Shown: in pieces, positions 1 to 36,800 of the stretch
Position numbering within the stretch: the stretch's first letter is position 1
Layout: every line of letters starts with the position of its first letter
Virus record (IMG/VR): IMGVR_UViG_3300021957_000074
Location: 1 to 45,494 of that record
Direction: 5' to 3' (one strand)
From: a virus
Length of the DNA stretch: 45,494 bases
Notes under the pieces: generated by a model
Told to the model about the DNA's origin: nothing
The model's database searches: none
What the model saw: only the letters and a program-made list of their open reading frames with translations
Position numbers and translations under genes: made by a program

Positions 1-66
1 GAAACTCATTACACAACATCCACAGTCAAGTTTGGATAAGCATCTTCAATGAACAGAGCAAGTGCC
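1..66. repeat. 66-bp direct repeat, copy 1 (window edge)
   Basis: Bases 1-66 are identical to 38,479-38,544. The copy covers the last codons of the small protein upstream and the ATG-AGT-TTC start of the giant tail gene downstream. Because it lies at the window edge, its true left boundary is unknown. After base 66 the two copies diverge. This is either a shared node in an assembly graph or a recent recombination boundary. Confidence 0.95.
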
Positions 67-359
67 ATCTGGTACTTCTCCATGGCATCTGACAGCAACT
101 GGGCATCTTCTAATCGACCTGCTGTTACCCACTCCATTGCCTTCTTTTCGATGTCTGGGACATTAATCTTGACAAGTCCAACCTTATCAGTTGGTGCAAA
201 GAGTTTCTGATCGTCATTCTTCTTGTACGAACGAAATGTAGCAGTCACACTGAATGGACTCTCATCATTCTCTGGAGAAGTATTTACAGCAGTCCTTAGA
301 TGCAAGTGATCAAACTCTTCACCACCTGTCTGATATTTTGGTGATATTTTTAGTGCCAT
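9..359 (-). CDS. 116-aa tail-region protein, long form of a 29-aa protein in the second module
   Basis: Unrecognised family. The first ten residues (MALKISPKYQ) and the last eighteen (ALALFIEDAYPNLTVDVV) match almost the whole of the 29-aa protein at 38,487-38,576. Here the two ends are separated by about 86 extra residues, and a KYQ triplet stands on both sides of the extra segment. The gene has a good SD (AAGGAG) and its own TATAAATA motif at 389-396. Its TAA overlaps the ATG of the next gene (TAATG, bases 7-11), whose product begins MSF and which is cut by the window edge. Position just before a giant tail gene suggests a tail-assembly or fibre-associated role. That is inference. Confidence 0.85.
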   Translation of the reverse strand: MALKISPKYQTGGEEFDHLHLRTAVNTSPENDESPFSVTATFRSYKKNDDQKLFAPTDKVGLVKINVPDIEKKAMEWVTAGRLEDAQLLSDAMEKYQMALALFIEDAYPNLTVDVV

Positions 360-388
360 TATAGTAACTCCTTATTGTTCTCTCTATC

Positions 389-396
389 TATTTATA
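389..396 (-). promoter_or_regulatory. TATAAATA late-type promoter for the 116-aa gene
   Basis: Reads TATAAATA on the minus strand, 30 nt upstream of the ATG at 359, with an SD between them. It resembles the T4 late promoter consensus, with no clear -35. It is one of fifteen such sites in the window. Confidence 0.6.
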
Positions 397-404
397 GTTT
401 TTAA

Positions 405-998: not shown

Positions 999-999
999 A

Positions 1000-4133: not shown

Positions 4134-4136
4134 GGT

Positions 4137-5003: not shown

Positions 5004-5004
5004 G

Positions 5005-6537: not shown

Positions 6538-6545
6538 TATTTATA
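6538..6545 (-). promoter_or_regulatory. TATAAATA late-type promoter for the tail-connector unit
   Basis: TATAAATA on the minus strand, followed by AGATAAGAGGAGAGAT and the ATG at 6521. It overlaps the stop codon of the third kelch-like gene. Confidence 0.6.
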
Positions 6546-7629
6546 CTTGGTGACCGCTTAGGAATCTTCTAAGGAGTGTCAATCCTCCATGTCCAGTTGA
6601 GGTTACATTTGATGCGAAATCAAACTTCTCAATTGTATTTAAGTTATCACCACCAGAAACGAATCCTTGGGTAGATGATGATGAACCTGTTCCCCTTTTA
6701 ATAGATCGGGATAAATCACCATGGTCGGTTGCGGTAGCACTAGACGAGAATAAGTATTTGTCTATTGTGGTATCAATCGACCTATCTCCACCTACAATAA
6801 ATGCGTAGTTTTCATTACCACACCCTGCTGAATCAAGAGAAGTTGTAGTCAAAGATGCGTGACTTGATGCAGTGACATTACTAGCAAATGAATATTTATT
6901 AGTAGACGCACCCATTATATTACCACCACTACTAAACCCATCTGTAGCAGAAGAATGTCCTACAGAGACCGAATTGGTAGAAGTCAAATCACCATGGTCC
7001 ACTGCATTACTAGCAGAAGTCATATCAAAGGATTCTATAGTATTGAGGTTTCCTCCATCTGTGCCACCTGCGTAGTATCCTCTTACTAATGATTGAGCAG
7101 GAGCACCTGCGTTCTTAACTCCAGTCAAATCACCATGGTTACTTGCTGTGGTGTTACTTGCGAAGTCCCATGAGTCCATATCCTCAAACCAACTACCTCG
7201 GAAACAACCTACTGTGAAACCTTTAGTAAGTGATGAAATACCACCATTCTGTGCTGACTTAGTTCTAGTCAAGTTTCCATGGTCACTTGCTGTTGTGTTG
7301 CTTGAGAAATCAAACTTGTCAATAGTGTCGGAGTATGTGGTATAGTAACCTGCACTAGCATACCCTTTACTTCTGTTTATAAAATCAACATATGCTTTGA
7401 CTGCATATTGGGTTGGTATATTAGAATCACTATTTTCTGATAATAAATAATCATTGGTAACAAAACTTGCTCCACTAACAACAGTTGTATCGGTGTAAAT
7501 GGGATTATTAAATACCGGTGTTACGTTTGTTAAACCAGAACCATCCCCATAGAAAGCACCACTAATGATACCAGTAACAGTGATGGTTCCATCAACTTCT
7601 AAGTCAGACTTTATGTTTATATCACTCAT
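6541..7629 (-). CDS. Kelch-like repeat tail fibre, copy 3 (362 aa)
   Basis: Residues 1-40 carry the fibre motif SGAFYGDGSGLTN, and residues 60-90 a linker (NSDSNIPTQYAVKAYVDF). Six repeats of about 48 residues follow, each with a variant of FDFSSNTTASDHGDLT ending in GF.xGG. Six such units fit a six-bladed beta-propeller. Similar ATDxGDLT repeats are familiar to me from environmental marine phages. It overlaps the preceding paralogue by ATGA and is the most diverged of the three (for example SFDMTSASNAVDHGDL). Likely a receptor-binding fibre or a fibre tip. Confidence 0.85.
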   Translation of the reverse strand: MSDINIKSDLEVDGTITVTGIISGAFYGDGSGLTNVTPVFNNPIYTDTTVVSGASFVTNDYLLSENSDSNIPTQYAVKAYVDFINRSKGYASAGYYTTYSDTIDKFDFSSNTTASDHGNLTRTKSAQNGGISSLTKGFTVGCFRGSWFEDMDSWDFASNTTASNHGDLTGVKNAGAPAQSLVRGYYAGGTDGGNLNTIESFDMTSASNAVDHGDLTSTNSVSVGHSSATDGFSSGGNIMGASTNKYSFASNVTASSHASLTTTSLDSAGCGNENYAFIVGGDRSIDTTIDKYLFSSSATATDHGDLSRSIKRGTGSSSSTQGFVSGGDNLNTIEKFDFASNVTSTGHGGLTLLRRFLSGHQV

Positions 7630-9560
7630 CCTTCATGCCCCGATACACCTTCTCTTGCTACTGTCAAGTCACCATGGTCTGTTGCGGTTACATTACTTGA
7701 GTAATCAAACGCATCTATAGTATTGGTGTGGGAATTACTAGAGTATTCACCACCTGAAGTAAAACCTTGAGTGTCGGAAGAGTGACTTGCAGGAAGTTCT
7801 CTCCCTAAACTCAAGTCTCCATGGTCTGTTGCAGTAGTGTTACTTGAGAAATCAAACTTGTCTATAGCATTTTGTTTTACTCCCGATATCCTACCACCAG
7901 ACGAGAAACCTTGTGTAAAAGATGATTGTCCTACTAAATTATACCTTGCTAATGATATATCTCCATGGTCACTTGCTGTTGTGTTGCTTGCGAAGTCGTA
8001 TTTGTCTATATCAGGGTTATTACCTCCACCTACTCCATCAATACCTCCACCACTAAAACCTTGCGATGAAGACGAACATCCAAAACATCCATAATGAGTG
8101 GTTGCTACACTACCATGAGAACTTGCTGTGGTATTGCTAGAAAACTGCATCTTCGATATCTTTCCAACTATAGTCAATGATTGAAGACCACAAGAGGTAA
8201 ACCCATGAGTTGATGATTGAGAAGTCCCTAATAATGACCTATTACTATCCAAGTCTCCATGGTCACTTGCTGTAGTGTTACTTTCAAAATCAAACCTTTG
8301 TATATCAGTAGAGTTGAATGATGAAAATTGCCCTCCCATAGTGAACCCCTGAGTAGTAGAGGAGGTTCCACTAGCATCCCCTTTTGCTTGTGTTAAGTCT
8401 CCATGGTCTGTTGCTGTGGTGTTACTTGCGAAATCAAACTTGTCAATTTGGTTATGATAACCACCAGACTTTCCTCCACTGGAGAACCCTTGTGATGGGG
8501 GAACATATGTAAAGTATCCCCTAACTGCTTTCTCGGTTACCAATAAATCATCGGACTCTTCACTCAACAATACATTAGTAGACACAAACCCATATGATGA
8601 TATATTTGTTGTGCTTTCATTTAGGTATTCGTCTGGGTCAACAGCAACATCACTTAAATTAGACCCATCTCCTTGGAAAGGACCAGTGATGTTAGCAGTT
8701 GAGGTTAGATCACCCTTAACGTCTATGTCGGACTTAATTTTATCACTCATCCTGCCATCCCTGATGAACCATACCCTGCAACTGTCAAGTCTCCATGGTC
8801 ACTTGCGGTAGTGTTACTTGCGAAGTCAAACTTCTCAATATCGGTGATTCCTACGGTATTAATACCACCGAAAGAGATGCCTTCCTCAAATGAAGATGAT
8901 GTAGAGTTATACCTAACTGCCGTAACTAAGTCTCCATGGTTACTTGCTGTTGTGTTACTTGCGAAATCAAACACATGTATGTCCTTAGTATCAGCACCTG
9001 CTCTATACCCTGCGATATTAAACCCTTGAGTTTCTGAAGAACACCCACTACCTATATAACGTGCATTTACTATATCTCCATGGTCTGTTGCGGTAGTGTT
9101 ACTTGAGAAATCAAACTTCTCAATAGTATTTGTGATTGTACTAACCCTTACTCCACCACTAAAAAACCCTTGGGTGTCACTTTCATGACCATTTTGGTAA
9201 AGATGTTTTTCGGTTAAGTCTCCATGGTCACTTGCTGTAGTGTTACTGGAGAAGTCAAACTTCTCAATAATGTCAGTTTTAACAGTGTCAGGTCTTTTAC
9301 CCCCAATAGAGAATCCATGTGTCCTAGAGGAAGCACATGCTTGAAATATCATAGTGCCAACCAAGTCTCCATGTGAACTTGATGTTGTATTTGATGAGAA
9401 CTTGAACTTGTCAATATCTGAAACATTCACACCACCAGTAGTAATCCCTCCTACTTGATAACCTTGGGTTGATGAACTACAACCATTACCACTACTATAG
9501 AATCTAGGAACTGTCAAGTCTCCATGGTCAACAGCAGTTACATTACTTGCGAAATCGCAT
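6570..9560 (-). repeat. About eighteen degenerate ~147-bp repeats across the three kelch-like genes
   Basis: Each unit carries a nearly constant 40-50 bp core around CCATGGT (encoding D-H-G) and a SNTTA segment, separated by variable DNA. The cores of the three genes are similar enough to support recombination between genes. Confidence 0.85.
7626..8750 (-). CDS. Kelch-like repeat tail fibre, copy 2 (374 aa)
   Basis: Same plan as its neighbours: an N-terminal SDIDVKGDLTSTANITGPFQGDGSNLSD module, a short linker with LLSEESDDLLVTEKAVRGY, then six repeats of the type GFSSGG...IDKFDFASNTTATDHGDL. The variable residues fall between the conserved DHGDL and GF.SGG cores, which would be the loops of the blades. 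It overlaps genes on both sides by 4 bp (ATGA), so the trio is co-translated. Probably the product of tandem duplication followed by divergence. Confidence 0.85.
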   Translation of the reverse strand: MSDKIKSDIDVKGDLTSTANITGPFQGDGSNLSDVAVDPDEYLNESTTNISSYGFVSTNVLLSEESDDLLVTEKAVRGYFTYVPPSQGFSSGGKSGGYHNQIDKFDFASNTTATDHGDLTQAKGDASGTSSTTQGFTMGGQFSSFNSTDIQRFDFESNTTASDHGDLDSNRSLLGTSQSSTHGFTSCGLQSLTIVGKISKMQFSSNTTASSHGSVATTHYGCFGCSSSSQGFSGGGIDGVGGGNNPDIDKYDFASNTTASDHGDISLARYNLVGQSSFTQGFSSGGRISGVKQNAIDKFDFSSNTTATDHGDLSLGRELPASHSSDTQGFTSGGEYSSNSHTNTIDAFDYSSNVTATDHGDLTVAREGVSGHEG

Positions 9561-9871
9561 TTATCAATAGTCGCAAGTCGCAAGTTTCCACCAGAATTAA
9601 ATGCTCTTGATGGTGATAGTGTTTCATATGTTATATATTCTTTTATACTTTTCTGTGTAGGAACCTTAGTTTGACTTTCACTAGAGAAATCATATTCATT
9701 TATAACCCATGTGTATCCACTTGTGCTTGTATCAGTTGTTGGTATTGCGTCTGGGTCCGTGGGGACTATGTTTGTTAAACCAGAACCATCCCCATAGAAA
9801 GCACCACTAATAGTACCTGTTGATGTTATATCTCCATCAACTTTAACATCTGATTTGAACTCATATGACAT
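8747..9871 (-). CDS. Kelch-like repeat tail fibre, copy 1 (374 aa)
   Basis: N-terminal module SDVKVDGDITSTGTISGAFYGDGSGLTN, linker YDFSSESQTKVPTQKSIKEYITY, then six repeats around FDFASNTTASDHGDLT with interspersed variable segments. It starts with TAATG coupling to the long 7-residue-repeat fibre upstream. The shared N-terminal module of the three paralogues may attach them to the same virion partner while the propeller faces bind different receptors. That is inference from their arrangement. Confidence 0.85.
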   Translation of the reverse strand: MSYEFKSDVKVDGDITSTGTISGAFYGDGSGLTNIVPTDPDAIPTTDTSTSGYTWVINEYDFSSESQTKVPTQKSIKEYITYETLSPSRAFNSGGNLRLATIDKCDFASNVTAVDHGDLTVPRFYSSGNGCSSSTQGYQVGGITTGGVNVSDIDKFKFSSNTTSSSHGDLVGTMIFQACASSRTHGFSIGGKRPDTVKTDIIEKFDFSSNTTASDHGDLTEKHLYQNGHESDTQGFFSGGVRVSTITNTIEKFDFSSNTTATDHGDIVNARYIGSGCSSETQGFNIAGYRAGADTKDIHVFDFASNTTASNHGDLVTAVRYNSTSSSFEEGISFGGINTVGITDIEKFDFASNTTASDHGDLTVAGYGSSGMAG

Positions 9872-11487
9872 TACGATATTACTTTAACAGTATATTGGTT
9901 GGTTGTGGGTGTTGTAGTAAAGTCTAAACTAATTGCTGTGGTTGATGTTGCTGTGGTTGATACTTGAACCAACTCATCACTAGTATTATCCCTAACACTA
10001 ACGACAACATCCTTAGTTCCAAGACTGTGAGTTATTGTGATAGGGTTAGTGGAACCATCCCCAACCGTAGCATCTGTATATTTACCAAGATCACTAAACG
10101 CAACGGTTTTTAGATAATTACTATCACTAGCATCTCTAACCAAGACCTCATCGGTTGGTTGAACACTTGTAATAGCACTCGTAGCATCAATAGTTGCTTG
10201 GGTTGAGTCGATGGATAGTGTTCCTAGATAAGTATCACCATTCACATCTGTGTAGTTGTCAATAGCACTTGATAGTTGGGTAAGAGTAACTGTACCATTG
10301 GTTGAGTCTGTAAAACGCATAACGTTACCACTAACATCAACATAAGTAGAAGTGCCTTCTATAAGAAGTCTCTGTGCTTGGAGGTCATCCCCACACACTA
10401 ACCTATTCGCTGCTCCACGATAAAGAGTAACGTCTGTAGAACCTGACCCTCCACCCCATTTTAGGTTACCATCTGTATTTATGGTAAATCTATCATTACC
10501 ACTACCACCTACCCTTGCCTTGAAGATAGTCGCATTAGCACTACTTCTAATATTCAAAACGGCATCTCTGTCAAGGGTTATGTAACTTGTAGCACCATTA
10601 TTTACTGATAGTATCGAACCATCAAAGGTCAAACTAGAGTCACCTTCAACTGTATTGGCATCGGTGAAGATTGCTAGTTGATTGTCTACTGGGGTTCCTG
10701 TCTTAGAAACATCTCCCAAACCAGTAGCACTAAAGGTTCCATTTACTGTTAGGTCACCTGTGATAGTATCTCCAGTAATATTAACATATCTAGAATCTAA
10801 AGTAGTTCCATCTTCTATGTTGTCTAAACGAGTTTCATGGGTTGAAATATCCCCAGTATTAGTTGAGATATTACCTGCATTGGTTGAAATGTTTCCAGTA
10901 TTAGTGGAGATGTTCCCAGTGTTAGTGGAGATGTTCCCTGCATTGGTTGAAATATTCCCTGCATTGGTTGAAATATTCCCTGCGTTAGTAGATATGTCTC
11001 CAGTATTAGCGGAGATGTTCCCTGCATTGGTTGAAATATCAGTATCATTACTAGAGATTTGTGCTTGTAAACTATCAAACGAACTTACATAGTATCCACT
11101 ACCACTTAGTTGTTTGGTGTCTGTATCATAAATGACTATCTCATTATCACTAATGTTATCTGTCCTAGTGGCAACTATTTGCTCACTGCCTACTTCTCCA
11201 ATCTTGAAGAGGTCATCATTCTCATCAAATACAATGCGATAATTGGTCAATAAACCCCTATCAACCTCAAACCCTGCATATTGGGTCGCAACACCACTTA
11301 CAGGTGCTCCTGATAGGTAATTTACGACTGTGATGGGGTCTACGATGTAAGTCTCCCCATAGGTATATGAGTTTCCTATAATTGAAGTGTCTCCAGTTAC
11401 AGTTAGTTCCCCATTTACAGTTAGGTCACCTTGTGTGGTCCAATCACTTGGAAATGTTGGGACTTGGGTTATATTTCCTACAATCAT
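9871..11487 (-). CDS. 538-aa tail fibre with a 7-residue-repeat stalk
   Basis: Residues 1-50 start like other fibre proteins (GDLTVNGELTVTGDTSIIGNSYTYGE). Residues 130-220 are about twelve tandem heptads of NIST-N-[AT]-G, then HETRLDNIEDGTTLDSRY, a classic start of a trimeric stalk. Another GDTITGDLTVNGTFSATG module and a beta-rich C-terminus follow (residues 260-538). It is followed directly by the three kelch-like genes (TAATG junction), so it may form the shaft to which they attach. That partnership is inferred from gene order only. Confidence 0.88.
   Translation of the reverse strand: MIVGNITQVPTFPSDWTTQGDLTVNGELTVTGDTSIIGNSYTYGETYIVDPITVVNYLSGAPVSGVATQYAGFEVDRGLLTNYRIVFDENDDLFKIGEVGSEQIVATRTDNISDNEIVIYDTDTKQLSGSGYYVSSFDSLQAQISSNDTDISTNAGNISANTGDISTNAGNISTNAGNISTNAGNISTNTGNISTNTGNISTNAGNISTNTGDISTHETRLDNIEDGTTLDSRYVNITGDTITGDLTVNGTFSATGLGDVSKTGTPVDNQLAIFTDANTVEGDSSLTFDGSILSVNNGATSYITLDRDAVLNIRSSANATIFKARVGGSGNDRFTINTDGNLKWGGGSGSTDVTLYRGAANRLVCGDDLQAQRLLIEGTSTYVDVSGNVMRFTDSTNGTVTLTQLSSAIDNYTDVNGDTYLGTLSIDSTQATIDATSAITSVQPTDEVLVRDASDSNYLKTVAFSDLGKYTDATVGDGSTNPITITHSLGTKDVVVSVRDNTSDELVQVSTTATSTTAISLDFTTTPTTNQYTVKVIS
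10846..11040 (-). repeat. 21-bp tandem repeats encoding the fibre heptads
   Basis: About nine to twelve units of 21 bp, each encoding NISTN[AT]G with synonymous variation. A shorter stretch of the same unit occurs in the other fibre gene near 3,400-3,480. Confidence 0.88.
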
Positions 11488-11496
11488 TGGATTTCC

Positions 11497-11799
11497 TTAG
11501 AAATTGTTTGTGTCTCTAGTTGAAATAGCAACACTAACTCCACTAGCAGTTATAGGTTTGACTATTCTTAGTCTTGCAGGACAATAGATGCCAATAGCAT
11601 TGCTCTCAGAGGTTAATGATATACTAACACCATACTGCATTAGTTGTTCCCATGTAGTACCATCAATTGAAAACTCCACAGTTACTACTTCACCTGTGCT
11701 AAGTCCTGTAGCAAACAATGCGACTTGTTGATTTGCCTCGAATGAAAAGGATGGGTATACTGTTTCTGCATCCGTGCTATTATTTATCAATGTGTTCAT
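11497..11799 (-). CDS. 100-aa beta-rich hypothetical structural protein
   Basis: Not recognised. The sequence alternates hydrophobic and polar residues as in a beta sandwich (ALFATGLSTGEVVTVEFSIDGTTWEQL), with no signal or membrane span. It is the first gene behind the TATAAATA motif at 11,823-11,830 and has an AGGAG SD. It lies between the capsid unit and the fibre unit, which suits a small virion protein such as a decoration or fibre-base protein. Confidence 0.78.
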   Translation of the reverse strand: MNTLINNSTDAETVYPSFSFEANQQVALFATGLSTGEVVTVEFSIDGTTWEQLMQYGVSISLTSESNAIGIYCPARLRIVKPITASGVSVAISTRDTNNF

Positions 11800-11822
11800 G
11801 TATTGCTCCTGTCCTACAGTGG

Positions 11823-11830
11823 TATTTATA
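11823..11830 (-). promoter_or_regulatory. TATAAATA late-type promoter for the fibre unit
   Basis: Minus-strand TATAAATA, 24 nt upstream of the ATG at 11,799 and just beyond the terminator at 11,845-11,892. Transcription therefore appears to stop and restart between the capsid and fibre genes. Confidence 0.65.
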
Positions 11831-11844
11831 TATTATGTTCTCAT

Positions 11845-11892
11845 ATAAAGAAAAAGGGACTGATAGAAGTATAACCTCCACCAATCCCTTTT
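11845..11892 (-). terminator. Intrinsic terminator after the capsid unit
   Basis: On the minus strand, AAAAGGGA pairs with TCCCTTTT (8 bp), and the 3' side runs into TTCTTT. The loop is long, about 25 nt. It lies just past the stop of the 133-aa gene. Confidence 0.6.
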
Positions 11893-11905
11893 ATATATGT
11901 TTGAC

Positions 11906-12307
11906 CTAGAGGTCTTCTAATTGTGCGTATAGTGCGAAAACACTTACTTTACCAGAGTCCAAGTCTGCACCAATGGTGAGATCAATTGTATCTGCTGAAG
12001 TATAAAGTTTACCCGCTGCATAAGCACCGTCACCTACAACGACACCAGTAGCACTGGTATCAATGACTGTATCCCACCCATCGGCATCGTCTGCGTCACC
12101 AAGGGTGTGCGAACCAGTTTCTGCTGTCAAAACATTAACACCAACCTTGAACACGAATGCTCCTGCTGGAATGTCAAGTGCTTCAACCACATCAAGGTCG
12201 GCAACATTTAGTTCAGAGAAATCCAAAGTGTTCTCTGCTTTTACAAGAATGGTTTTTTCCATTTCCACTGCTTGTTTCTTGTCTACGAAAGTTGTTACTG
12301 TACTCAT
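11906..12307 (-). CDS. 133-aa capsid decoration-like protein
   Basis: Lies 18 bp downstream of the coat gene with an AGGAGG SD. The protein is acidic and beta-rich, with the pattern LDIPAGAFVFKVGVNVLTAETG...GDADDADGWDTV...IDLTIGADLDSGKVSVFALYAQL, typical of small jelly-roll or head-decoration proteins found beside phage coat genes. No membrane segment is present. Decoration of the mature capsid is an inference from position and fold impression. It closes a transcription unit, with the terminator at 11,845-11,892. Confidence 0.75.
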   Translation of the reverse strand: MSTVTTFVDKKQAVEMEKTILVKAENTLDFSELNVADLDVVEALDIPAGAFVFKVGVNVLTAETGSHTLGDADDADGWDTVIDTSATGVVVGDGAYAAGKLYTSADTIDLTIGADLDSGKVSVFALYAQLEDL

Positions 12308-12325
12308 TTTCTTATCCTCCTAGAA

Positions 12326-13303
12326 TTAAAGTGCTGTACGAGCAGTGTAAACTGCCATTGAACCATAGTCATTTCCGTCAAATACGGGTTTTGCTGTACC
12401 GAAAATCAATTGGATAGCAACACCTTTCTCTGCACCATAATCGAACTCGTCTTCAACGATCTGAGGACGCATTCCATAACCACAAACAAGTGATTGTTGT
12501 CCAAGAAGGACTGCTTTAGCACCTGCTGTAGATCCACCTGCTCCCCAATCAACTGTGACTGGTACTCTTTCAGATTCCTTGATGATTACATTGTCCCATA
12601 CTCCAAGAGCACCTGTAAAGATAGGATTCTTTTCCGATCTTGCTTGTGCTTCTCGTTGTGCTTGTGTGAAAGTGGAATCAATCTTCAAGTCATATGCTTG
12701 ATGAGGGTGAACCAAGAGAACATAGTATTCTCCACCATCAACCTTAACAGGTTTGATAGGAGTGAAAGCACGATTGTCTCCAGTCTTTGCGATAGCACGA
12801 AGTTTAGAAATCAAAGAAGGGGTAATCTTGTCTGCGATAGTCGCAGTAGATGTTGCCGATCCAGAATAAACAATCTTACTAGGTGAAGCATTGATAGCAT
12901 CAAAGAAGAGTTCGTCTACTTTTTCTACTGCCCAATCCTTGATTGCTGTACGAGTTTCTTCAGGAAGAGAGAACATTGCTCTCTGGTCTGATAGAAGTGA
13001 GTCGTAAGATACTGCGTGTCTGTACTCATTAAGAGTAAGGTCTGTAGTGTTGGATACCAATGATTCTTCTTTACCACGAAGAGTTTCACCATTAGTGACT
13101 CCTGCACCTGTCAATCGGTTACGAATTGCAAAACGCAATCGGTCACCTTTCTTTGCCATAAAGTCTTCTTTCGTATGAACGATTGCTGAACTTCCACCTT
13201 GCATTTTAGCAAAGAATGGTTCAATAATCATGTCACGGAAGAGTTCCTCTGACCATAATTTTACTGCCTCGTTTGCCGAGGTTGATACTTGTGATTTACT
13301 CAT
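12326..13303 (-). CDS. Major capsid protein, N4-gp56 / DUF4043 type (phage A)
   Basis: 325 residues. The N-terminal third (ANEAVKLWSEELFRDMIIEPFFAKMQG...KKGDRLRFAIRNRLTGAGVTNGETLRGKEESLVSNTTDLTLNEYRHAVSYDS) carries the recognisable pattern of the N4-gp56-like coat family, an HK97-fold shell protein. The body includes LVHPHQAYDLK and the C-terminus DYGAEKGVAIQLIFGTAKPVFDG. SD AAGGAGC is well placed. It follows the scaffold gene as in P22 and shares no visible similarity with the coat gene of the second module at 40,547-41,509. Confidence 0.92.
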   Translation of the reverse strand: MSKSQVSTSANEAVKLWSEELFRDMIIEPFFAKMQGGSSAIVHTKEDFMAKKGDRLRFAIRNRLTGAGVTNGETLRGKEESLVSNTTDLTLNEYRHAVSYDSLLSDQRAMFSLPEETRTAIKDWAVEKVDELFFDAINASPSKIVYSGSATSTATIADKITPSLISKLRAIAKTGDNRAFTPIKPVKVDGGEYYVLLVHPHQAYDLKIDSTFTQAQREAQARSEKNPIFTGALGVWDNVIIKESERVPVTVDWGAGGSTAGAKAVLLGQQSLVCGYGMRPQIVEDEFDYGAEKGVAIQLIFGTAKPVFDGNDYGSMAVYTARTAL

Positions 13304-13335
13304 TTTACTGCTCCTTGTTTGTTAGTTTTTGAGTA

Positions 13336-14205
13336 TTATTTTCCATAGAAACCCATTTCTGTAAGTCTCTTTTGAATCTCGTCCCTAGACATTGATCTAA
13401 GTTGAGAGTCGGTGATTTCCTTGGAAGAAGAAGCAGATTGTTTACCTTTGATAGTAGGAGTCTTCTTGCTATTCTTAGCAATTTGTTTAATAGTCTCTTT
13501 CCCATTGTTTCGGATATTCTCCATCTCTTTTTTCAAGGATGCTCGTTTGGCAAATTGAATTGCCAAGAGAGGGTCTGTTTGAACAGTTTGTTGTAACATT
13601 TGCAAACTAGGTTCGGCAATACCATCTTCCTTTCCTACCCCTAGGATTGCTCCCTTTAGTTCATCAAAGTTAGGAACGGTGTTATATACATGTTGCATAT
13701 TTTGATTTACCCATTGCTCTTGTTTCTGTCTTTGCTGTTGTATAGCATTATCTCTCTTTTGAAGTTCCTTTGATAATGCTTCTTGAGGATTCTTTACAAA
13801 ATCATCTAGAAAATCACCATTTGGTTCTTCGGTTTGACTTTGTTGTTGGTTCTGAAGTTGTTGTTGTTGAAACTTACGCAACTGGGACAACTCTTGAGAA
13901 TGCTTACCTATAAGTTTCTCGGCATTGCTGTACCTGTTTTTGTAATTATCTAACTCCTTCTTCAATGCCTCAACATCGTCTGAAGTTTCTTCCATTTCAG
14001 TGTCTCCTTCTTGTGAAGGTTCTGTAACTTCAGTGGTAGGTTGTTCTACGTCTGGTGAGATTTCATCAACCTCTTGTGTAGTTTCCTCTACCGTTTCGTC
14101 TCCTGTATCTTCGTTTGGTTCGGGTGGACTCTGCGTATCCTCTGCATTCAAGAATGCTTGAGGGTCAAAATCATTACCATTCCTTACTTCTGACCTATTT
14201 GACAT
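13336..14205 (-). CDS. Scaffolding protein (phage A)
   Basis: 289 residues, very polar. Residues 1-80 are acidic (many E, D, T, P), residues 85-190 are Q-rich and helical (LRKFQQQQLQNQQQSQ), and the C-terminal 80 residues are basic (KKTPTIKGKQSASSSKEITDSQLRSMSRDEIQKRLTEMG). An acidic-to-basic helical protein directly upstream of the coat gene is the standard form of a phage scaffold, whose basic C-terminus binds coat. A leader of about 80 nt separates the gene from its TATAAATA motif. Confidence 0.85.
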   Translation of the reverse strand: MSNRSEVRNGNDFDPQAFLNAEDTQSPPEPNEDTGDETVEETTQEVDEISPDVEQPTTEVTEPSQEGDTEMEETSDDVEALKKELDNYKNRYSNAEKLIGKHSQELSQLRKFQQQQLQNQQQSQTEEPNGDFLDDFVKNPQEALSKELQKRDNAIQQQRQKQEQWVNQNMQHVYNTVPNFDELKGAILGVGKEDGIAEPSLQMLQQTVQTDPLLAIQFAKRASLKKEMENIRNNGKETIKQIAKNSKKTPTIKGKQSASSSKEITDSQLRSMSRDEIQKRLTEMGFYGK

Positions 14206-14284
14206 ATAAACTCCTTTGTAAAATTGGGTTCTAACGAGTATCCCTGTGGAGATTGAGTTCCATAAATGGGGTTTCTCATAACTT

Positions 14285-14292
14285 TATTTATA
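14285..14292 (-). promoter_or_regulatory. TATAAATA late-type promoter for scaffold and coat
   Basis: Minus-strand TATAAATA in the 115-bp gap between portal and scaffold, about 80 nt upstream of the scaffold ATG at 14,205. The untranslated leader is the longest among these units, which may allow extra control of coat expression. Confidence 0.6.
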
Positions 14293-14320
14293 ATAATTAT
14301 ATTTTATGTGTTGTGTTTTT

Positions 14321-16438
14321 TTATAATTCTTGCTCACCCATCAACATTTGTTGTTGTGGATTCAACGAAGCACCTTGGACTCCCCCTTGAGGTTGTCCGC
14401 CATCTTCACCCTTGGCAATGACAGTTTTCTGTATTTCTGTATCGTATTTCTTTTGCTCTGCTTGTTGTTGTGCCTGTGCTTGTGCCTGTATCATGCCTAG
14501 AATCTCATCCTTGTTAGGTAGGTCACTAGATTGTATAAGAACGTCAGGAGGGACTGGAAGACCATATTTGACCATCTCAAGCAACAATGAAAAGTTAGCA
14601 CTACGAGTAGTAGGACTATTAGCAGATACTTCAATAGCAATATCCAACTCTTCTAGACCATTATCATTTAATAATCTTTCTACTGCCATCTCTTGCTTTT
14701 GAATCTTCACTTGGTCCTCTTCAGTTTGAGGGTTTTGGTTACTAATCAAACGCATTAGTCTATCATTAGAGTAAACCTTTTGAACAGTCTTTAATATATT
14801 CTTTGCTAATAGTCTCTTTGCTTGTGCTAGGTTGTCAAACAAGAACTCATTAGCAGTTAGGACATTCCTTCTCTTCTCTATGATAGCAACTGAGGATACT
14901 TCTCTCTCACTAAACCCTAAAGTCTCTGGAGAGATGTTCATAACTGTCATCAACTTCTCACTTGCTAGTTGTTGCATACCTACCAACTCACTTGGCATCC
15001 TTGTTCCTTGTGTTTGGATAGGGGTTTGGTTTATGTCACGAACTTTACCTGTCCATCCTGCCTTTGATAAGTCCCTCTTCCATTGATTCTCTTCTCTTGT
15101 GGTATCAAAGGTCTTATCATCATAGAAATACCCATAGGATGCCACCCTATTGACGATATCAAGGGACTGAGAGTGTCTTTTGTTTATCTCTCGTTGAATA
15201 TCCTTCACATCCTCTATCTTACCATAGAACTGACCCTTGGATGTTCTCTTAGCATATACTGGAATCACTGGAAAGAAGTCTTGTTCCTCTATTTTCTCAT
15301 CCAAGATGATATCTCCTGCACATGTAGTCACCTTCATGTTGAACATTGTCCTTACGATAACCTCTATACCAATACCTTCCAATGCTTTTATCTCTTTTTC
15401 TGTCAAATCATTAACAGTGTCAACGAAAACATCATCATAACTAACCACTGAGTATGCTGTAAGATAATTCTTCTCCCATATCTCTTTCACAGTAATCATT
15501 TGCTTGTCAACATCAACAATATCCATGAGATTACCTTCGTCTAGACGATATTCCATACCCTCTATAGTAGTATTTCGTTTACCAAACTCTATTTCCTCTG
15601 CCTTATGGTATAAAGTATCAATATCATCCTTCTTTTTAGGGAACATCAACTTCAATTTCTTCTTAGGGATGATCTCACTCTTGATAATATACTCACAGTC
15701 ACTCAAATCTGCTTTATCATGTGGTCCAAACTGTGCGGAGTTCCATGGTAGTCTCTCAACACATATCTTTCCAAACATATTCTCGTTATAGTCTACATAT
15801 TGGTGGTAAATACCTCTACCTACGGATGTTTCATCCTTGAATACCTCACTTTCAGTTACATGGAAGTTGTTAGTGTCCAAAATATTCTTTACTGTCTCAG
15901 TTGCGACTTGAGATACATCATTATCACCACTCTCAATAGGGAATGCTCTAACATCAGTACGATTTTGACGTTGGAAACCACATAATAGGTCAACCTTACT
16001 CGCAATCTCGTTGATTGTAATAGCAGGTCTATCTTCCTCTGCTAATTTTGCTTTGTCGGAGTCACTCCATTGCTTTCCTGCGTAGAAATCTTCACTCTCT
16101 TCACCCTTCTGGACACTCTCCTTCTCTAATTCAATGACTTCCTCTGCTAATTTCTTGAACTTACTCTTCTTTTCAGTCTCAGTGAGGTCATCATCGTCTG
16201 TTTTATCAACACTAAACTCAATTGGTGCTTCAATAGCATGAGTATGTGATGATTTTCCCGATGGTAACAAGTCTACAGTGCCATCTCCGTTCAATACTGC
16301 TTCATGGGAGTGACCATTTGCTTCTCCTACGACTGGTTCCAACTTTTCAGTCTCCATACCATTCATGTCAGTCTCTTTTACAGACCTAACATACACGATG
16401 TGGGTGTGTCTCTTGTCTTTTGTGCTTCTATACAACAT
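14321..16438 (-). CDS. Portal protein, P22 gp1-like, with HxH-rich N-terminus
   Basis: 705 residues, near the 725 of P22 portal. Residues 90-600 match the family in character: DFYAGKQWSDSDKAKLAEEDRPAITINEIASKVDLLCGFQRQNRTDVRAFP, then VGRGIYHQYVDYNENMFGKICVERLPWNSAQFGP. A Q-rich C-terminus resembles the barrel tail. The first 70 residues are unusual, with three HxH motifs at H11/H13, H43/H45 and H65/H67, the latter two in a GHSH...SSHTH pair as in metal-binding phage modules. The portal forms the dodecameric DNA gate and docks TerL. It has an AAGGAC SD and its own promoter. Confidence 0.92.
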   Translation of the reverse strand: MLYRSTKDKRHTHIVYVRSVKETDMNGMETEKLEPVVGEANGHSHEAVLNGDGTVDLLPSGKSSHTHAIEAPIEFSVDKTDDDDLTETEKKSKFKKLAEEVIELEKESVQKGEESEDFYAGKQWSDSDKAKLAEEDRPAITINEIASKVDLLCGFQRQNRTDVRAFPIESGDNDVSQVATETVKNILDTNNFHVTESEVFKDETSVGRGIYHQYVDYNENMFGKICVERLPWNSAQFGPHDKADLSDCEYIIKSEIIPKKKLKLMFPKKKDDIDTLYHKAEEIEFGKRNTTIEGMEYRLDEGNLMDIVDVDKQMITVKEIWEKNYLTAYSVVSYDDVFVDTVNDLTEKEIKALEGIGIEVIVRTMFNMKVTTCAGDIILDEKIEEQDFFPVIPVYAKRTSKGQFYGKIEDVKDIQREINKRHSQSLDIVNRVASYGYFYDDKTFDTTREENQWKRDLSKAGWTGKVRDINQTPIQTQGTRMPSELVGMQQLASEKLMTVMNISPETLGFSEREVSSVAIIEKRRNVLTANEFLFDNLAQAKRLLAKNILKTVQKVYSNDRLMRLISNQNPQTEEDQVKIQKQEMAVERLLNDNGLEELDIAIEVSANSPTTRSANFSLLLEMVKYGLPVPPDVLIQSSDLPNKDEILGMIQAQAQAQQQAEQKKYDTEIQKTVIAKGEDGGQPQGGVQGASLNPQQQMLMGEQEL

Positions 16439-16471
16439 ATCTACGTCCTTTAAGGGTAATTATACTACACA

Positions 16472-16479
16472 TATTTATA
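16472..16479 (-). promoter_or_regulatory. TATAAATA late-type promoter for the portal gene
   Basis: Minus-strand TATAAATA, 34 nt upstream of the portal ATG at 16,438, in the gap after the 239-aa gene. Confidence 0.6.
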
Positions 16480-16481
16480 TA

Positions 16482-17201
16482 TTACGACTCTTCATCTTCA
16501 TTTTCGTTGTCTTCCACTACCTCGGCATCAATTACATCGTCAAAGTTCATGTCAGTCATCTTACTTTCACTGTTTTTGTGTATGAGAGAGGTTAGGGTAT
16601 GTTTTATCTCTACTGTCTTCTCTGGTTTACCATCTAATAGTTTCATTTTGTCTATCAGGATACTCATAGCAATAGCAGAATCCTTTAATGATGCTTTCTC
16701 TATCTTATCTTCATCAAAACAACTATTTAATAATTTAATTGCCTTACCCATGAGAGCACTACTGAACTCTTTATCAAATAATGCCTTCTGTTCATCAGAC
16801 AATTTTGCGTAGGTTCCAAACTTTATCTCACTCTTCAACTCTATACCCATTTCTTTGAGTTCATCTCGGGTTAGTTCTAACTTGTTCTCGTTGAGGGATG
16901 TTTTACCTTTCTTTAATTCAGCACCTACCTTCTTCAACTCCCTTGTCTTTGCTTTTTCAACCTTCTTGAGTTCGTCTACCTTATCACCTATCCTCTTTTT
17001 ACTTTCTTGGTCTGTCCTCTTTAATGGTTCAATACCCTTTTCTAATGCTTTGGTATTGATATCATTGATTGCTTCCTTACCTTCTACCCTTGCTTTTCTC
17101 TTGTCATCCTCATCCCTATCGTAAATATATTCCTTACCAGATGGTGTTACAACCTTGTTCTTGGTCCTACGACCATTACCTTTTGCTCTTTCCTTTGCCA
17201 T
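16482..17201 (-). CDS. 239-aa basic/acidic helical protein between TerL and portal
   Basis: Not firmly recognised. Residues 1-120 are very basic and helical (KNKVVTPSGKEYIYDRDEDDKRKARVEG...KKVEKAKTRELKKVGAELKKG). Residues 160-205 contain LKDSAIAMSILIDKMKLLDGKPEKTVEIKHTL, a pattern like the C-terminal part of some small terminase proteins. The last 25 residues are strongly acidic. SD AAGGAG is well placed. Position between TerL and portal also fits a packaging or assembly cofactor. Small terminase is possible but unproven, since that subunit usually precedes TerL. Confidence 0.7.
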   Translation of the reverse strand: MAKERAKGNGRRTKNKVVTPSGKEYIYDRDEDDKRKARVEGKEAINDINTKALEKGIEPLKRTDQESKKRIGDKVDELKKVEKAKTRELKKVGAELKKGKTSLNENKLELTRDELKEMGIELKSEIKFGTYAKLSDEQKALFDKEFSSALMGKAIKLLNSCFDEDKIEKASLKDSAIAMSILIDKMKLLDGKPEKTVEIKHTLTSLIHKNSESKMTDMNFDDVIDAEVVEDNENEDEES

Positions 17202-17210
17202 ATCTACTCC

Positions 17211-18854
17211 TTATGAACTCATCCAAGATGCTCTGTCACTCATTTGTTTATCAAACCCTTCACGAAATAATTTATCATAAGGGTCTTCTATATCAGACTC
17301 ATCTACGATATTCCTATCTAAGTCATCAATATACATTGAGATTGCTAATGCGTCTGCATAGTCAGGAGACTCTCCACCTAACCTTTTCTTTATATCCTTC
17401 TTTGCTTCTATCTTGATGGTCCCCATTTGGTCCTCAAACCTTACAGTGGATAACTGAACACGCAATGGTTCTAGGTTTGGTATCGTAACTGGTTGTTTTT
17501 CAAACAGATTACGCAAACTATACCATAACTCATCACGCAATACTCTAAATTGAGGTTTCTTGGAACTACGAGAGAACTCTACAGCATATACTTTAGGGAA
17601 TGACCTTCTAAGAGCATCATATACACCTGCACCTACTCCCAATGAGTCAATACATATATACTCTGGTTCATACTTCTTTGCTAACTTTAATATCTCAATT
17701 GCTACATCAATACTATCTATCTTATTCACTGTGATGAACTCTCTAACATCATAACCCTTACGGACACATACAACGGTGTTATCCCCCCCACTACGAGCAA
17801 CGTCAACTCCAAAGACAACATCTCTCTCATTCATCATGTTGGGCATTGCTTCCCTATGAATAGCATTCTCTACCCATGTATAAGAGATAAGAGACTGGTC
17901 CTCACTTGAGGGTGGTACTCCTAATACAGATACTCGGAAGTTGTTATTATCACGACCACCATACTTCTTTGCTAACGATTGTATGTAATCAGAAGATACG
18001 ATATCACTATCCTCTCCACTCCAATGTAACTTCAAGAAGTGCTTACTCTTCTCTATATCATAATGACTATCATATGCCCATCCATTATGTCTAGTAGGGT
18101 TGAACAATGCTATTACAAAGTTACATCTACTTGTCATGGTTGATTCCAATGGTTCAAATACAGCATCATGTAAACTGTTTGCTTCATCTATCAATATCAT
18201 CATGTTATCAGCATGTTGACCACCCAAGACTGCCTTCAATATACCCTCGTCAGCATTACGAGGACTTACCCTTTGGAATGCTCCCCATTGAGGGTCATCG
18301 TTCATACGAACCTCACTTGCTCTAATGTCTATCTTACTACGAAAGGGTTCTTGGAATATTAAATCATTCTCCTCATTGACCTTACGAAACCACATGTTCA
18401 TCTCTGCCCACAGGATTGTCTTCAAGGACTTCTCAGTCGGTCCTACACAAGGTATCTTACTATTCGTATGAGTACACAGAAACCAAAAGTTTAACCATGA
18501 TGATGAACAAGACTTTCCTACTCCACGACCTGCCCTTATTGTTATACCCAAATATTGGGAATACCTACGGATAGGACGAGGTAACATATTCAAATTATTT
18601 GCCTTCTCAAAGTCCCATTTTATCTTCTTACAAAATGATAACCTACCAACACTCTCTATCAACTCTAACTGCTGTTCAGTGATGGTGAATCCATTGGACT
18701 CATTGATACCTATTACCTCACGAATGAATGTCTCTGGAAACGTTTGATACCTACGGAATGCTCTATCCTCTACTGTATCACCACCAGAGACAAACTTCTT
18801 ACGAGCATCATCTATTACCTTGATGTCCTTCGGACTTAATGGATCTATGACCAC
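17211..18854 (-). CDS. Terminase large subunit (phage A)
   Basis: 547 residues (P22 gp2: 499). Walker A is RAGRGVGKS at 107-115 and Walker B is MILIDE at 219-224 with D223 and E224. The ATPase C-motif region is ALFNPT around 249-254. The RNase H-like nuclease shows D351 (GVDVARSGGD), D403 (CIDSLGVGAG) and D498/D501 (SPDYADALA). This motor cuts concatemers and pumps DNA through the portal. The start is a GTG that shares its G with the preceding TAG (TAGTG), indicating translational coupling to the 77-aa gene. It is unrelated by eye to the TerL at 43,743-45,287. Confidence 0.95.
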   Translation of the reverse strand: MVIDPLSPKDIKVIDDARKKFVSGGDTVEDRAFRRYQTFPETFIREVIGINESNGFTITEQQLELIESVGRLSFCKKIKWDFEKANNLNMLPRPIRRYSQYLGITIRAGRGVGKSCSSSWLNFWFLCTHTNSKIPCVGPTEKSLKTILWAEMNMWFRKVNEENDLIFQEPFRSKIDIRASEVRMNDDPQWGAFQRVSPRNADEGILKAVLGGQHADNMMILIDEANSLHDAVFEPLESTMTSRCNFVIALFNPTRHNGWAYDSHYDIEKSKHFLKLHWSGEDSDIVSSDYIQSLAKKYGGRDNNNFRVSVLGVPPSSEDQSLISYTWVENAIHREAMPNMMNERDVVFGVDVARSGGDNTVVCVRKGYDVREFITVNKIDSIDVAIEILKLAKKYEPEYICIDSLGVGAGVYDALRRSFPKVYAVEFSRSSKKPQFRVLRDELWYSLRNLFEKQPVTIPNLEPLRVQLSTVRFEDQMGTIKIEAKKDIKKRLGGESPDYADALAISMYIDDLDRNIVDESDIEDPYDKLFREGFDKQMSDRASWMSS

Positions 18855-25996: not shown

Positions 25997-26599
25997 ATGG
26001 GAACGCAAAAGGCAACAGAGTGTAAAGAGTGTGGGGTAGAGAGGAACGATGAGTTCTATGGCAAGTTATGTAAAGACTGCTATCTATCGTATTGTAGGGA
26101 CTACTATCACAAGAATAGTGAGAAGAGTAACAAGTCAACGATGGAGTGGAGAGAGAATAACATTGAGCAGTATAGGGAGATGCAGAGGTTGTATCATCGC
26201 AATAGGTATAACGACCCTGATAAGAAGAGAAAGATGCAGTTGAAGAATCGTTTTGGTAATGTATTGAAGCAATGGATAACAACACATAGATTGGACACCC
26301 ATGTGTTACCTACATTGAAAGAGAAGACACTTACTAAGATAGAGGAATTGATTGGATGTGACTTCTCAATGCTAATTGATAGGTTTGAGAAGCAGTGGAA
26401 GAAGGACTATGGTTGTGACATAGATTGGAATGACATGTTTATTAAATCATGTGACGGCAAACTTGAGTTGGAACATATTATGCCAGTTCGTGCATTTGAT
26501 TTTACAATGGAACAAGACGTTGATACTTGTTGGCACTTTGGTAATCTAAAGATGCTCAAGCAAATAGATAATAGAACTGGCAGACCTGTTAGAGTATAG
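25997..26599 (+). CDS. HNH endonuclease-like protein with N-terminal zinc ribbon
   Basis: 200 residues. C9/C12 and C25/C28 form a CxxC-12-CxxC ribbon. The C-terminal nuclease core reads LELEHIMPVRAF (E159, H160), CWHFGNLKML (H180, N183) and IDN (N192), matching the EH...H..N...N arrangement of HNH enzymes. The middle is helical and basic. SD AAGGAG. It stands alone with its own promoter and a terminator behind it, as free-standing phage homing nucleases often do. A packaging-associated HNH is less likely because the gene is not near terminase. Confidence 0.82.
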   Translation: MGTQKATECKECGVERNDEFYGKLCKDCYLSYCRDYYHKNSEKSNKSTMEWRENNIEQYREMQRLYHRNRYNDPDKKRKMQLKNRFGNVLKQWITTHRLDTHVLPTLKEKTLTKIEELIGCDFSMLIDRFEKQWKKDYGCDIDWNDMFIKSCDGKLELEHIMPVRAFDFTMEQDVDTCWHFGNLKMLKQIDNRTGRPVRV

Positions 26600-33400: not shown

Positions 33401-33643
33401 ATTCTCAAGAGCAATGAGTTGTTCAATACCTGCCATATACTTAGCAGTGGCATCGTTGATAGCATCCCTTTGGTCTTGATATGCTTCTTGTTCAAGTATA
33501 GAGGAACCCACAGAGGTTGCCGCCGCACCAACAGCAGAGAGTGGACCTCCCTCCTTGAATGCTTTGATTATACTTTCTAAAGATGATGGAAGGGATTTAA
33601 TAATCTTCTTCAACCCATCTTCTACTTCTTCACCTACTGCCAT
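30497..33643 (-). CDS. 1,048-aa Q-rich putative ejection protein
   Basis: The N-terminal 500 residues are helical and alanine/glutamine-rich (SLNQQLASRGLLDSGAAIEAQSELIQGMTLEEMQRQTGLQ), like internal core proteins of podoviruses. Residues 500-1,048 are low-complexity, rich in N, Q, P, T, S and Y (NYYTPSQEYTQTMQNYQTHL; TTTPTTTTPTP). GAGGAGC SD and the TATAAATA motif at 33,662-33,669 make it the first gene of the ejection unit. Likely released from the capsid during infection. The long disordered half is unusual and may be unfolded to pass through the portal. Confidence 0.75.
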   Translation of the reverse strand: MAVGEEVEDGLKKIIKSLPSSLESIIKAFKEGGPLSAVGAAATSVGSSILEQEAYQDQRDAINDATAKYMAGIEQLIALENIFADEQLTRLQDAFGLTEAQIQENLRTDPQFIVEAYQYVEDTFDPQITDRFSDSINQLSEGMRNLTEDQLTAFEGAMTDANGLLEDSDRNLHFGYDEAGNQLSVAKGVITSGIGEASNIIGALDNFGQEEIQGGMREALGLGQDYIDQGQAGLGAFSDTALNPNSELFQRNLGLAQESLNQQLASRGLLDSGAAIEAQSELIQGMTLEEMQRQTGLQQTLAEMGQGQISNAQQLISSDATQRVQLAKDLGLVQADYVMSSAQDLAEIDKALAQNMIQEAVQKGELTAQQAQNIMQTGQLQGGGIADYMNTLSQVQSSASSQVLQSDLSQEQQIASARQEAVMKAVDRGMSLQDALTQFPLEQFQQEFNVDRGRLDQISDLEVGQMNREQEALTALANIEGMDQLGLAEALRTMGGGKKTGGGSSVESGVDIDLSQLFKDIGDSNFVQTLMGGGDFRSALATLPAIGNLFDYNTDPNSGPTPDNTTVNPNSGINFDGGRQDTTSDFSWMNDMSNDPFFNQDPVSTTPTNDMNGYDPSSQDMPSMTPSPTDDHYFDPSNLDVEVMRGKAGFDGSGMVKTDTGYITQENYDNQVSNPNFSGLVMGPRQGEEGYVGMETMFNQTPEALRDNAQVSEDQRKQDYQAQLQSEIGRYQNQLNESVKGGQRPNYALMADAEIAIQQRQYMLENPNATEMPNFSSQYAGNVRGGYTPPSFNNYYTPSQEYTQTMQNYQTHLDSQPPQRVGDSSFFVDGNGKLVDMGGTMQHGGQEVTDPKQRMAILEMQYYKNQNPDANYTNYYSTTNGEQVLDGGWGDSGLRDVYNNLADTGIGDQVGDVMNGGTTTPTTTTPTPNVYLPTTLPEYDFMGQGQRSVVSSETPFTQPSGFSNYLETNQTNRADSRTADMGPDAVIPEVTPTNPYNNNNYQSFRPQGFRTQYKSSRPFSKTLDSLPTNTGGQRKVEHQRPDFNIKHY

Positions 33644-33661
33644 AATTTGCTCCTCAATTGT

Positions 33662-33669
33662 TATTTATA
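33662..33669 (-). promoter_or_regulatory. TATAAATA late-type promoter for the ejection unit
   Basis: Minus-strand TATAAATA, 18 nt upstream of the ATG at 33,643, overlapping the stop of the 65-aa gene. It is the rightmost copy of this motif that I found in the window. Confidence 0.62.
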
Positions 33670-33862
33670 CGACCTGTGACCCATACACATCTTCCCTACT
33701 AGCAGGGTTGGTAGGTAATGCTGTAATTATAGACTGGACAGAGGATTCTAATGCGAAACCTCCAATCAAAAGTGCGTTCTTTATGTTCTCAAGGTCGAGA
33801 GGTGTCAACACACTTTCCTGACTATTAGATAACGCATTATTCAGTGATGCAGGTAGTATCAT
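33665..33862 (-). CDS. 65-aa protein after the giant tail gene
   Basis: Not recognised. MILPASLNNALSNSQESVLT... is helical with moderate hydrophobicity (IKNALLIGGFALESSVQSIITALP), possibly membrane-active. Its ATG overlaps the stop of the giant gene (ATGA), so it is expressed with it. Composition is that of phage A. Confidence 0.72.
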   Translation of the reverse strand: MILPASLNNALSNSQESVLTPLDLENIKNALLIGGFALESSVQSIITALPTNPASREDVYGSQVV

Positions 33863-36800
33863 AGTTTTTCGTATCTAGTAGAGTTTGATATTGTTGATGG
33901 GTCACCATTACTGTCCTTGAATAGAATAGTTTTCAAAGGTGTTGTTCCATCATCGTCATATACTACCATTCTATAAGCAAGATATTGTAATACTTCAGTT
34001 GTTCCATCACTATCAAAGTATTTAACGTTGTTATCGTGATATTTCAATAGTGTATCTAAAATACTAACATCTGCTTTAGATGCGTTCCTTGAATCGGTAT
34101 CGGTAGTAACATCCTCTGTAAGACCTCTAGCACCACCAAAAGTCCACACATCGGTTGCAGTGAGGGTAGAAGTAGTAATTGAGTCCTTGATGTTCTCTAG
34201 GGTATCTGTAGAGGTCCATCCTGCTCCCTTGAGGTCATTGAACTCTGCTACCATCTCCGCATTAGTAGGACCATCGTAATTAGCAAGTCTAGCATCAATG
34301 TCTGATGTGCTTAGGTCATTGAGTCCAGAAACACTAACTTGTGTTGCTAATCCACTAACGTCTGCCTTATAGTCATCCTTGTTAGCATAGTTGTTCAGTG
34401 CTGTATGTAACTCACCCTCATCAAGAGAAGAAGCATTATCACTAATATTCTCTAGGGTATCTGTAGAGGTCCATCCTGCTCCCTTGATCTCGGTGAATGC
34501 TGAGGTCATCTCTGTGAGCGTTGGCAAGCCATATGCAGTTAGTCTGGCATCGATGTCTGCTGTGCTTAGGTCGTTAAGCGAAGCAAACGCTGAGTCCATC
34601 TCAGCTTTAGTTGGAGCATCGTAATCCCCAAGAGCAGTATCGACTTCGCCATTGATCGCATTAAAGAATCCAGTTGTGAATGCAGAATTGTTAAACGCAT
34701 TATTGGCTACCTTGTTAGAGGTGATGGCATTGTTCTTCAAGTCAACTTCATCAGTCGAAGCATCGAATGTGGACAGTCCAGAAACATCTGCTTGGCTTGC
34801 TGTCCTTGACGCAGAATCAGTTATCACCTCGTCCGTTGTAGAGTCAAAGTCTGAGCGAGTAGAGATGGCAACGTCTAAGTTTGTTGTATCGAGACTCAAA
34901 AGTTTGATACTCTCCGCTGGAGTCAGTCCACTAACACCTGTTTCTGCAATTAACACAGGCTCTCTCCATTCTATGTCCACGCCAAATCCAGATGTTGTTG
35001 GGTTCTTTACTGGTCGCAGTCCATCATTACGGTAGACTCTCCTGTTATCGTTTTGGAAAGCCTCTGCTGTTGTTGCATTATCAAACTTAATATCAATTGT
35101 ATCATTATTAATTTTGAAGTTAGCAATGTCGATTGCTGAAACGCCACCAAAGAACTCTCTTATACCCGCTTCAGTGTATAGAGTATATTTCCACCAAGCA
35201 AACCATTCGTCAGCTCTGAATGCACCAGAGACAACAACATCCACCTCATCAGCAATATAATCAGCAGTGAAGTCCACTATTGTAGACCCATCTATTGCCA
35301 GAGTGTTATATACTTGGCAGTCAACTTGATCTGCGGCTATTGACCATCCGTTTGTTGTTGCAACAGTGGATTGCGTAAATTCTACTTTTGCTGTGACTCC
35401 GCTTACATAAGTTATACGGACTCGAACACTATCGCCATCAGAATAACCAACCCCATCAGTATATTGTAAACTATAAGATGTACCTGCATTAATAGCATTT
35501 ACAATTTCAGTAGCAGTCGTGACATTATAAATTTGGATGCGTGAATTAGCTACCAGATTTGTAATACTTGCTGTTGCTAATACAGGTGATGTGCCATATG
35601 AGCCATCATCGGACTGGAAACGTGTAAAATCAGCGTGTGGGTCTGAGCTTCCGTCTATTACCCTAGCACCAGCATCTACATCACCACCTGGATCATGTAT
35701 TTCACCTAACAGAGTTTCATAAGCTGGGCCATTATCTAGTACGATCTCAGGCCAGAAGAAAGGATCTTTGCCTTGGAAGGTAGCATCTAATGAAAGGTTA
35801 TAATTCAACCATCTTAGGATGTCTTCACCTGTATTGCTGTTTGTATCTGTAAGTGTTATTGAGTAATCTTTCAAGCCATCACCAGCATCCCATGAGATAG
35901 GAGATGCACTATCATCGGTTAAAGAAACACCAGTGATTCCAGGATCACCTAATGTCAACCCATCAATAGCAAGTTGTGGTAGTGAGATTACATAAAGCGT
36001 TTCTTCAAGTGTTCCATAGGTAGTTGTTACTGAAGTTTCAGCTTGTCTGTACCCATTAGTTTGAACTTTTACATCAAGGATAGTAGAGTAATCAAAGTTA
36101 CCATGTGTAGCATCTCCAAAGTATTGTAGTACTTCATCCATGTTTCCTGTTGCTTGAGCTTTCTGAACAGAACCAGCATCAAAGTAATATTTAACTTGTG
36201 ATCCTGCAACTACGCCCTGAGATAGTATTGCACAGAAGCTTGCTGTCACGACCTCACCAGTGCTTACATATCTGAATCCATCCCTTGATAGATACTGAAT
36301 ACTTCCTGCTGTGAACTCATGGTCAATATTAAGTGAGAATGAAGCAGAACCAAATGGCGATAGTGGGAATGCCTTATTAGTTAAAGCACTTTCAGCAATC
36401 CAGAATTCAATCCAAGCAGAGTACCAGTTCTGTACTGTGGTTGCTGTAGTTACTGCGAAGTCTGTTCCTACTAATGTAGCAGTAGTTCCATAAGTTAATC
36501 CACTGGAGGCAACGTATGCCCTGTCCTCTGCTTGTGATATGCTTGCGGGCACTGGCAATGAAGTAATGACTACTCCAACAACTCTAATTGGCAAATACCC
36601 CGCTTTCATTACTGTGTAATCATATGTTCCCGTAGTCAGTGGAGTTACATTTTCACTTGTTCCAGAAGAGTTAGTTCTGAATGATTCTGTTTGAGTTCCA
36701 GTTTGAAACACTACTACTTGAGAACCCGCAACTAAATTAGTAAATTGAATACTCCCTGTAGGTGCGTTGATTGTGATGTTTGGCCCTGTGTTTGTTGTTA

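Follow-up and report, generated by a model that had tools for sequence, protein, structure and literature searches.

The phage DNA that makes up the first 34,487 bases of the IMG/VR record IMGVR_UViG_3300021957_000074 has lost every copy of the degenerate site RGCY, of which about 180–260 would be expected overall. Site avoidance is ordinary in kind; what is unusual here is its specificity and its completeness. The loss was probably driven by Type II restriction in the host, including an enzyme that cuts RGCY, acting on a narrow podovirus lineage.

Two phages in one record

The record is a single contig of 45,494 bases, all of which was analyzed and is referred to here as the window. Because two head modules occur within it, one each for what we call phage A and phage B, the contig is a composite of two phages. 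Phage A DNA (1–34,487; part A) has a P22-like podovirus layout, with head-closure genes and, on the minus strand, genes for a terminase large subunit (TerL; 17,211–18,854; 547 aa; Terminase_6C, 4e-9; phrog_2), a portal protein (14,321–16,438; 705 aa; phrog_156, 8.9e-91), and a major head protein (MCP; 12,326–13,303; 325 aa; phrog_334, 5.8e-64). The stretch 10,181–17,823 is confirmed (minus strand) by an independent contig from another IMG/VR record (L003), which is 99.97% identical and has no RGCY in its 7643 bases. Relatives of the phage A head-closure protein, of a 1048-aa protein, and of an HNH-type protein described below were sought in viral contigs, and none were found.

Three genes in a row at 6541–9871 carry repeated FASNTTASDHGDL-like units of the Kelch type. 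A sister contig (L030, see below) matches these genes but with different repeats, and they are possibly a diversifying receptor-binding array.

Phage B (38,545–45,494, minus strand) shows ordinary site numbers and a KL1-like head module, with TerL (43,743–45,287), portal, scaffold, a Gp13-like MCP, and the adaptor Ad1, as in KL1-type phages. Two small genes, one membrane-like and one lipoprotein-like, follow Ad1 in the interval 38,545–40,461, and then comes the fiber, whereas in Paracoccus phage R3 the place of these two is taken by genes for head closure and tail. Phage B may be a different phage type carrying a KL1-like head.

Elimination of RGCY and other sites

The preliminary description of this DNA reported AGCT as missing from 1–34,602, and the counts bear this out, with 0 copies up to the first at 34,603 and 47 copies in 34,603–45,494. 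Within 1–34,487, 120 copies are expected from base composition and 71 from a maximal-order Markov model. A stricter expectation comes from a codon null, in which synonymous codons are shuffled within part A so that every protein and the codon usage are preserved; under this null, the coding DNA of part A has 0 AGCT against 86 expected (z = -11.7). The suspicion that GGCC and GCGC are also absent from part A was likewise correct (observed/expected 0/14 and 0/9, codon null).

The first reading of the sequence overlooked AGCC/GGCT, which is equally absent (0 vs. 78 expected, codon null) and which, together with AGCT, forms the two top-ranked depleted tetramer classes of part A when all classes are compared under this null. 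It is the sole nonpalindromic tetramer absent from part A at so high an expectation, and palindromes make up most of the remaining strongly depleted classes. Because AGCC/GGCT is not a palindrome, its loss is unexplained by any enzyme specific for AGCT or GGCC, and because it is absent alongside both of these, the eliminated unit is RGCY (AGCT, AGCC/GGCT, and GGCC together). RGCY occurs 0 times in part A coding DNA against 179 expected (z = -19, codon null), and the first RGCY of the record is at 34,527–34,530. AGCA/TGCT is found 484 times on both strands of part A, and AGCT, AGCC, GGCT, and GGCC never; RGCA/TGCY is plentiful, RGCG/CGCY is reduced to 11/87 (a ratio of 0.63 in L030), and practically all GC dinucleotides of part A are TGC or GCA. 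The earlier interpretation thus stands as to restriction-site elimination over evolutionary time and falls as to its agent, an AluI-like AGCT enzyme: AGCT is among the missing sites, but AluI exerts no selection against AGCC/GGCT (0/78) or GGCC (0/14), and since these are equally missing, an AluI-only reading is ruled out.

For protein-coding DNA, the complete loss of a degenerate site that amounts to ~3 bp is severely constraining. It pushes alanine to GCA and squeezes out AGC for serine, GGC for glycine, and CGC for arginine.

Other sites are depleted in part A as well (all values from the codon null). RAATTY is wholly absent from its genes (0/49–50), with AATT in other flanks at ~0.6, and CCGG occurs once (1/24). 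RGCY, RAATTY, and CCGG each have an observed/expected ratio below 0.1 at an expectation above 15, the definition of elimination used for dsDNA phages by Rusinov et al. (2018; PMC6286503), applied here with codon-null expectations rather than the Burge ratio of that study. YACGTR, CCWGG, and GCGC also have no copies, at lower expectations; GATC, GTAC, and TCGA are at 0.18–0.32, a three- to fivefold reduction; and CATG (1.21) and CTAG show no depletion. The depletion centers on palindromic units, and codon usage and protein sequence do not account for it.

We considered whether the cause could be a bias in mutation or codon use, such as one against GC without a preceding T and without a following A, instead of restriction. 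The near confinement of GC to TGC and GCA and the low RGCG/CGCY count are what such a bias would produce. It is nevertheless very improbable, given that the lost unit is a degenerate palindrome and that palindromes without a GC step (RAATTY, TCGA, GTAC) are depleted along with it. Further, the loss exceeds the codon-preserving null and is not seen in distant relatives, where RGCY is normal, two results that together rule out a codon or composition artifact.

Judged by the codon null, the coding DNA of part A is also short of two words that are not palindromes: CGACG/CGTCG (0/22) and AAAAA/TTTTT (22/137).

Relatives of phage A and the agent of the loss

Two further contigs, L002 (8972 bases) and L030 (12,575 bases), which overlap each other with 100% identity over 2.8 kb, are 70%–77% identical to part A in the main aligned blocks. 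L002 has no RGCY, and L030 has three against 65 expected in coding DNA. In a substitution shuffle between phage A and these relatives (four alignments), ~31 RGCY would be expected in total and the relatives show 2, a comparison that is a guide only, as substituted positions were fixed, only the target bases were shuffled, and protein constraint was ignored; the lone phage A “RGCY” in the portal alignment is a product of removed gap columns. Six distant relatives, identified by TerL or portal, have RGCY at 0.91–1.16 of a first-order expectation, and RGCY loss is therefore not a family trait. It is confined to the phage A lineage and has been maintained there across ~25% nucleotide divergence.

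The set of avoided sites differs among sister lineages, as expected of changing host enzymes. L002 and L030 are nearly devoid of GTAC, TCGA, CATG, ACGT, GATC, and CCGG, and the CATG ratio is 1.21 in phage A versus 0.05 in L030 (codon null).

Taken as a whole, the purge in L002 and L030, RGCY included, is broader than that of the window. Reading frames at 831–1439 of L002, inside an RGCY-free phage, look like a TnpB-type transposon protein with zinc-finger CxxC pairs. In phage C72C1 (OQ984150), the GATC ratio is 0.00, and an annotated DNA methyltransferase is present.

The simplest single cause of the RGCY loss is a host enzyme that cuts RGCY. Nontemperate (lytic) dsDNA phages are known to use elimination of Type II sites as a strategy, which is strongest among them (Rusinov et al. 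2018; PMC6286503). Phage A resembles the phages of that study in having Type II palindromic sites far under expectation and differs from them in that its unit is the degenerate RGCY and that RAATTY and CCGG are gone too. Hosts of the phage A lineage would possess Type II restriction, including a CviJI-like activity cutting RGCY (A/G-G-C-C/T); phage DNA bearing the site would be cut at entry, and mutations removing sites would be favored, and those creating sites lost, down to zero sites. RAATTY and CCGG would have been lost likewise in phage A, and TCGA, GTAC, CATG, and ACGT in L002 and L030, by encounters of each sub-lineage with other host enzymes. The step near 34.5 kb would then be a join, inside the fiber gene, to DNA without that history, made by recombination or in assembly. 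RAATTY is the specificity of ApoI-type enzymes, and its complete absence from part A genes, with AATT elsewhere persisting, suggests a system of this type.

To our knowledge, RGCY specificity belongs only to Chlorella-virus enzymes. In the literature searched, the only such enzyme was CviJI of Chlorella virus IL-3A (PMC3681635, PMC7019647), whose recognition unit is identical to that eliminated in phage A, where all spellings are gone together; the difference is that CviJI comes from an algal virus, whereas the phage A case is a site absence in a bacteriophage that points to carriage by a bacterium. No bacterial RGCY restriction system was found in the same literature, which is weak evidence of absence. 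Scans of bacterial genomes with the portal and terminase found no relative that could indicate the host, and plasmid matches were rejected as a host link at <60% identity. Two further observations count against a host RGCY cutter. The low RGCG/CGCY count in phage A is unexplained by a strict RGCY enzyme and may reflect either an additional, distinct pressure or an activity that is relaxed, and 32 RGCY lie in 34,488–38,478, if that segment truly belongs to phage A.

Joint action of two or three host systems (AluI-like for AGCT, HaeIII-like for GGCC, and one for AGCC/GGCT) would suit a phage that clearly met multiple restriction specificities. However, AGCC/GGCT would require an asymmetric 4-bp enzyme of its own, and a single RGCY activity is the simpler account, all spellings being equally gone in A and almost equally in L030; we regard the joint scheme as unlikely.

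Little credence can also be given to a phage-encoded RGCY nuclease that destroys host DNA, in which case a site-free phage genome would need no protecting methylase. In its favor, no RGCY at all is left in A (0/179), against a fall only to 0.2–0.5 for several other palindromes, and part A does encode an HNH/endonuclease VII-like protein (25,997–26,599, plus strand; 200 aa), recognized by tblastn matches to records annotated as endonuclease VII or HNH and the only nuclease candidate recognized in part A besides the terminase. An HNH-looking gene lies near the portal in L002 and L030 too, but that of L002 is at a different locus, and the phage A protein looks like endonuclease VII and homing-type HNH proteins, groups for which 4-bp specificity is not known. 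Moreover, a single phage enzyme could hardly account for all the sites lost, given that RAATTY is missing just as completely as RGCY and that the relatives have shed several others, and L030 tolerates three RGCY. A Pfam search with the 200-aa protein gave nothing above cutoff, its comparison with the PDB gave chance-level matches only, and PADLOC run on ten part A proteins reported no defense or counter-defense genes.

If host restriction is the agent, as we favor, the purge preserves, like a fossil, which restriction enzymes the phage met, and it reads out RGCY, a specificity not found for bacteria in the literature searched. It also offers a direct route to host prediction, the bacterium sought being one with RGCY and RAATTY methylation.

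The composition step and the fiber gene

The composition step is real and sharp, with a change-point for all purged motifs at 34,265–34,517 (95% interval). The preliminary description took it for the border between phages A and B. That holds in part: a step near 34.5 kb does exist, but it lies inside a tail-fiber-like ORF of 1542 aa (33,859–38,487, minus strand) that stays open in frame across it, to 38,487. The N terminus of this fiber matches gp54 of Syn5 at 26%, and its middle matches fibers of other phages at 58% and 42%.

A 40-bp exact direct repeat has copies at 34,193–34,232 and 34,448–34,487, the second of which adjoins the RGCY step. The site-rich fiber segment that follows (34,488–38,478, minus strand) shows none of phage A's eliminations, with RGCY at 32/39 and RAATTY at 5/7. 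Its background codon usage is nearer A than B (+4.9 vs. -1.8 to -7.5 for B genes), and a T4-like phage is among those that have similar fiber middles. The segment may be foreign fiber DNA within phage A rather than part of phage B. Such an abrupt loss of signal inside a fiber gene illustrates the use of purged sites as a means of revealing recombination or chimeric contigs.

A second exact direct repeat, of 66 bp, has its left copy at 1–66, at the end of a 116-aa gene of phage A whose stop overlaps a start, and its right copy at 38,479–38,544, at the start codon of the fiber ORF and beside the first unambiguous phage B gene. Read on through this repeat, phage A would be a closed genome of 38,478 bp, in which the start codon overlapped by the stop of the 116-aa gene is that of the fiber ORF, and phage B would run from 38,545. 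Folding of the 66-bp repeat region found nothing, and four contigs from a degenerate search for the end of the 116-aa gene were discarded as unsupported by whole-gene tblastn.

Recent acquisition of the fiber segment by phage A and an assembler crossover at the 40-bp repeat are about evenly matched. To the specific proposal that the step is a real recombinant, in which the closed phage A (38,478 bp, with the 66-bp overlap) recently received 4 kb of fiber DNA from a phage not under restriction and the sole false join is that to B at 38,545, we assign slightly less than an even chance; it concerns the step only and is compatible with host restriction as the cause of the purge. In its favor, closure of A by the 66-bp repeat falls exactly where the stop of the 116-aa gene is coupled to the start of the fiber ORF, the ORF is in frame across the step, the segment is like A and unlike B in background codon usage, and related fiber middles are known from the T4-like phage and others. 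However, the 32 RGCY would then belong to a phage that elsewhere has none, a crossover in assembly at the 40-bp repeat accounts for the step equally well, and neither junction is spanned by a second contig. More doubtful still, though a real possibility, is the full scenario, in which an undescribed bacterial system for the very frequent site RGCY, common in hosts of the podovirus lineage, purged all RGCY and the phage has only just taken up a fiber segment rich in the site. If true, the new segment would capture, in nature, a host-range gene in the act of passing a restriction barrier.

The short frame at 38,545 begins MALTVSPKYQ, which is similar to the MALKISPKYQ that opens the 116-aa gene of phage A.
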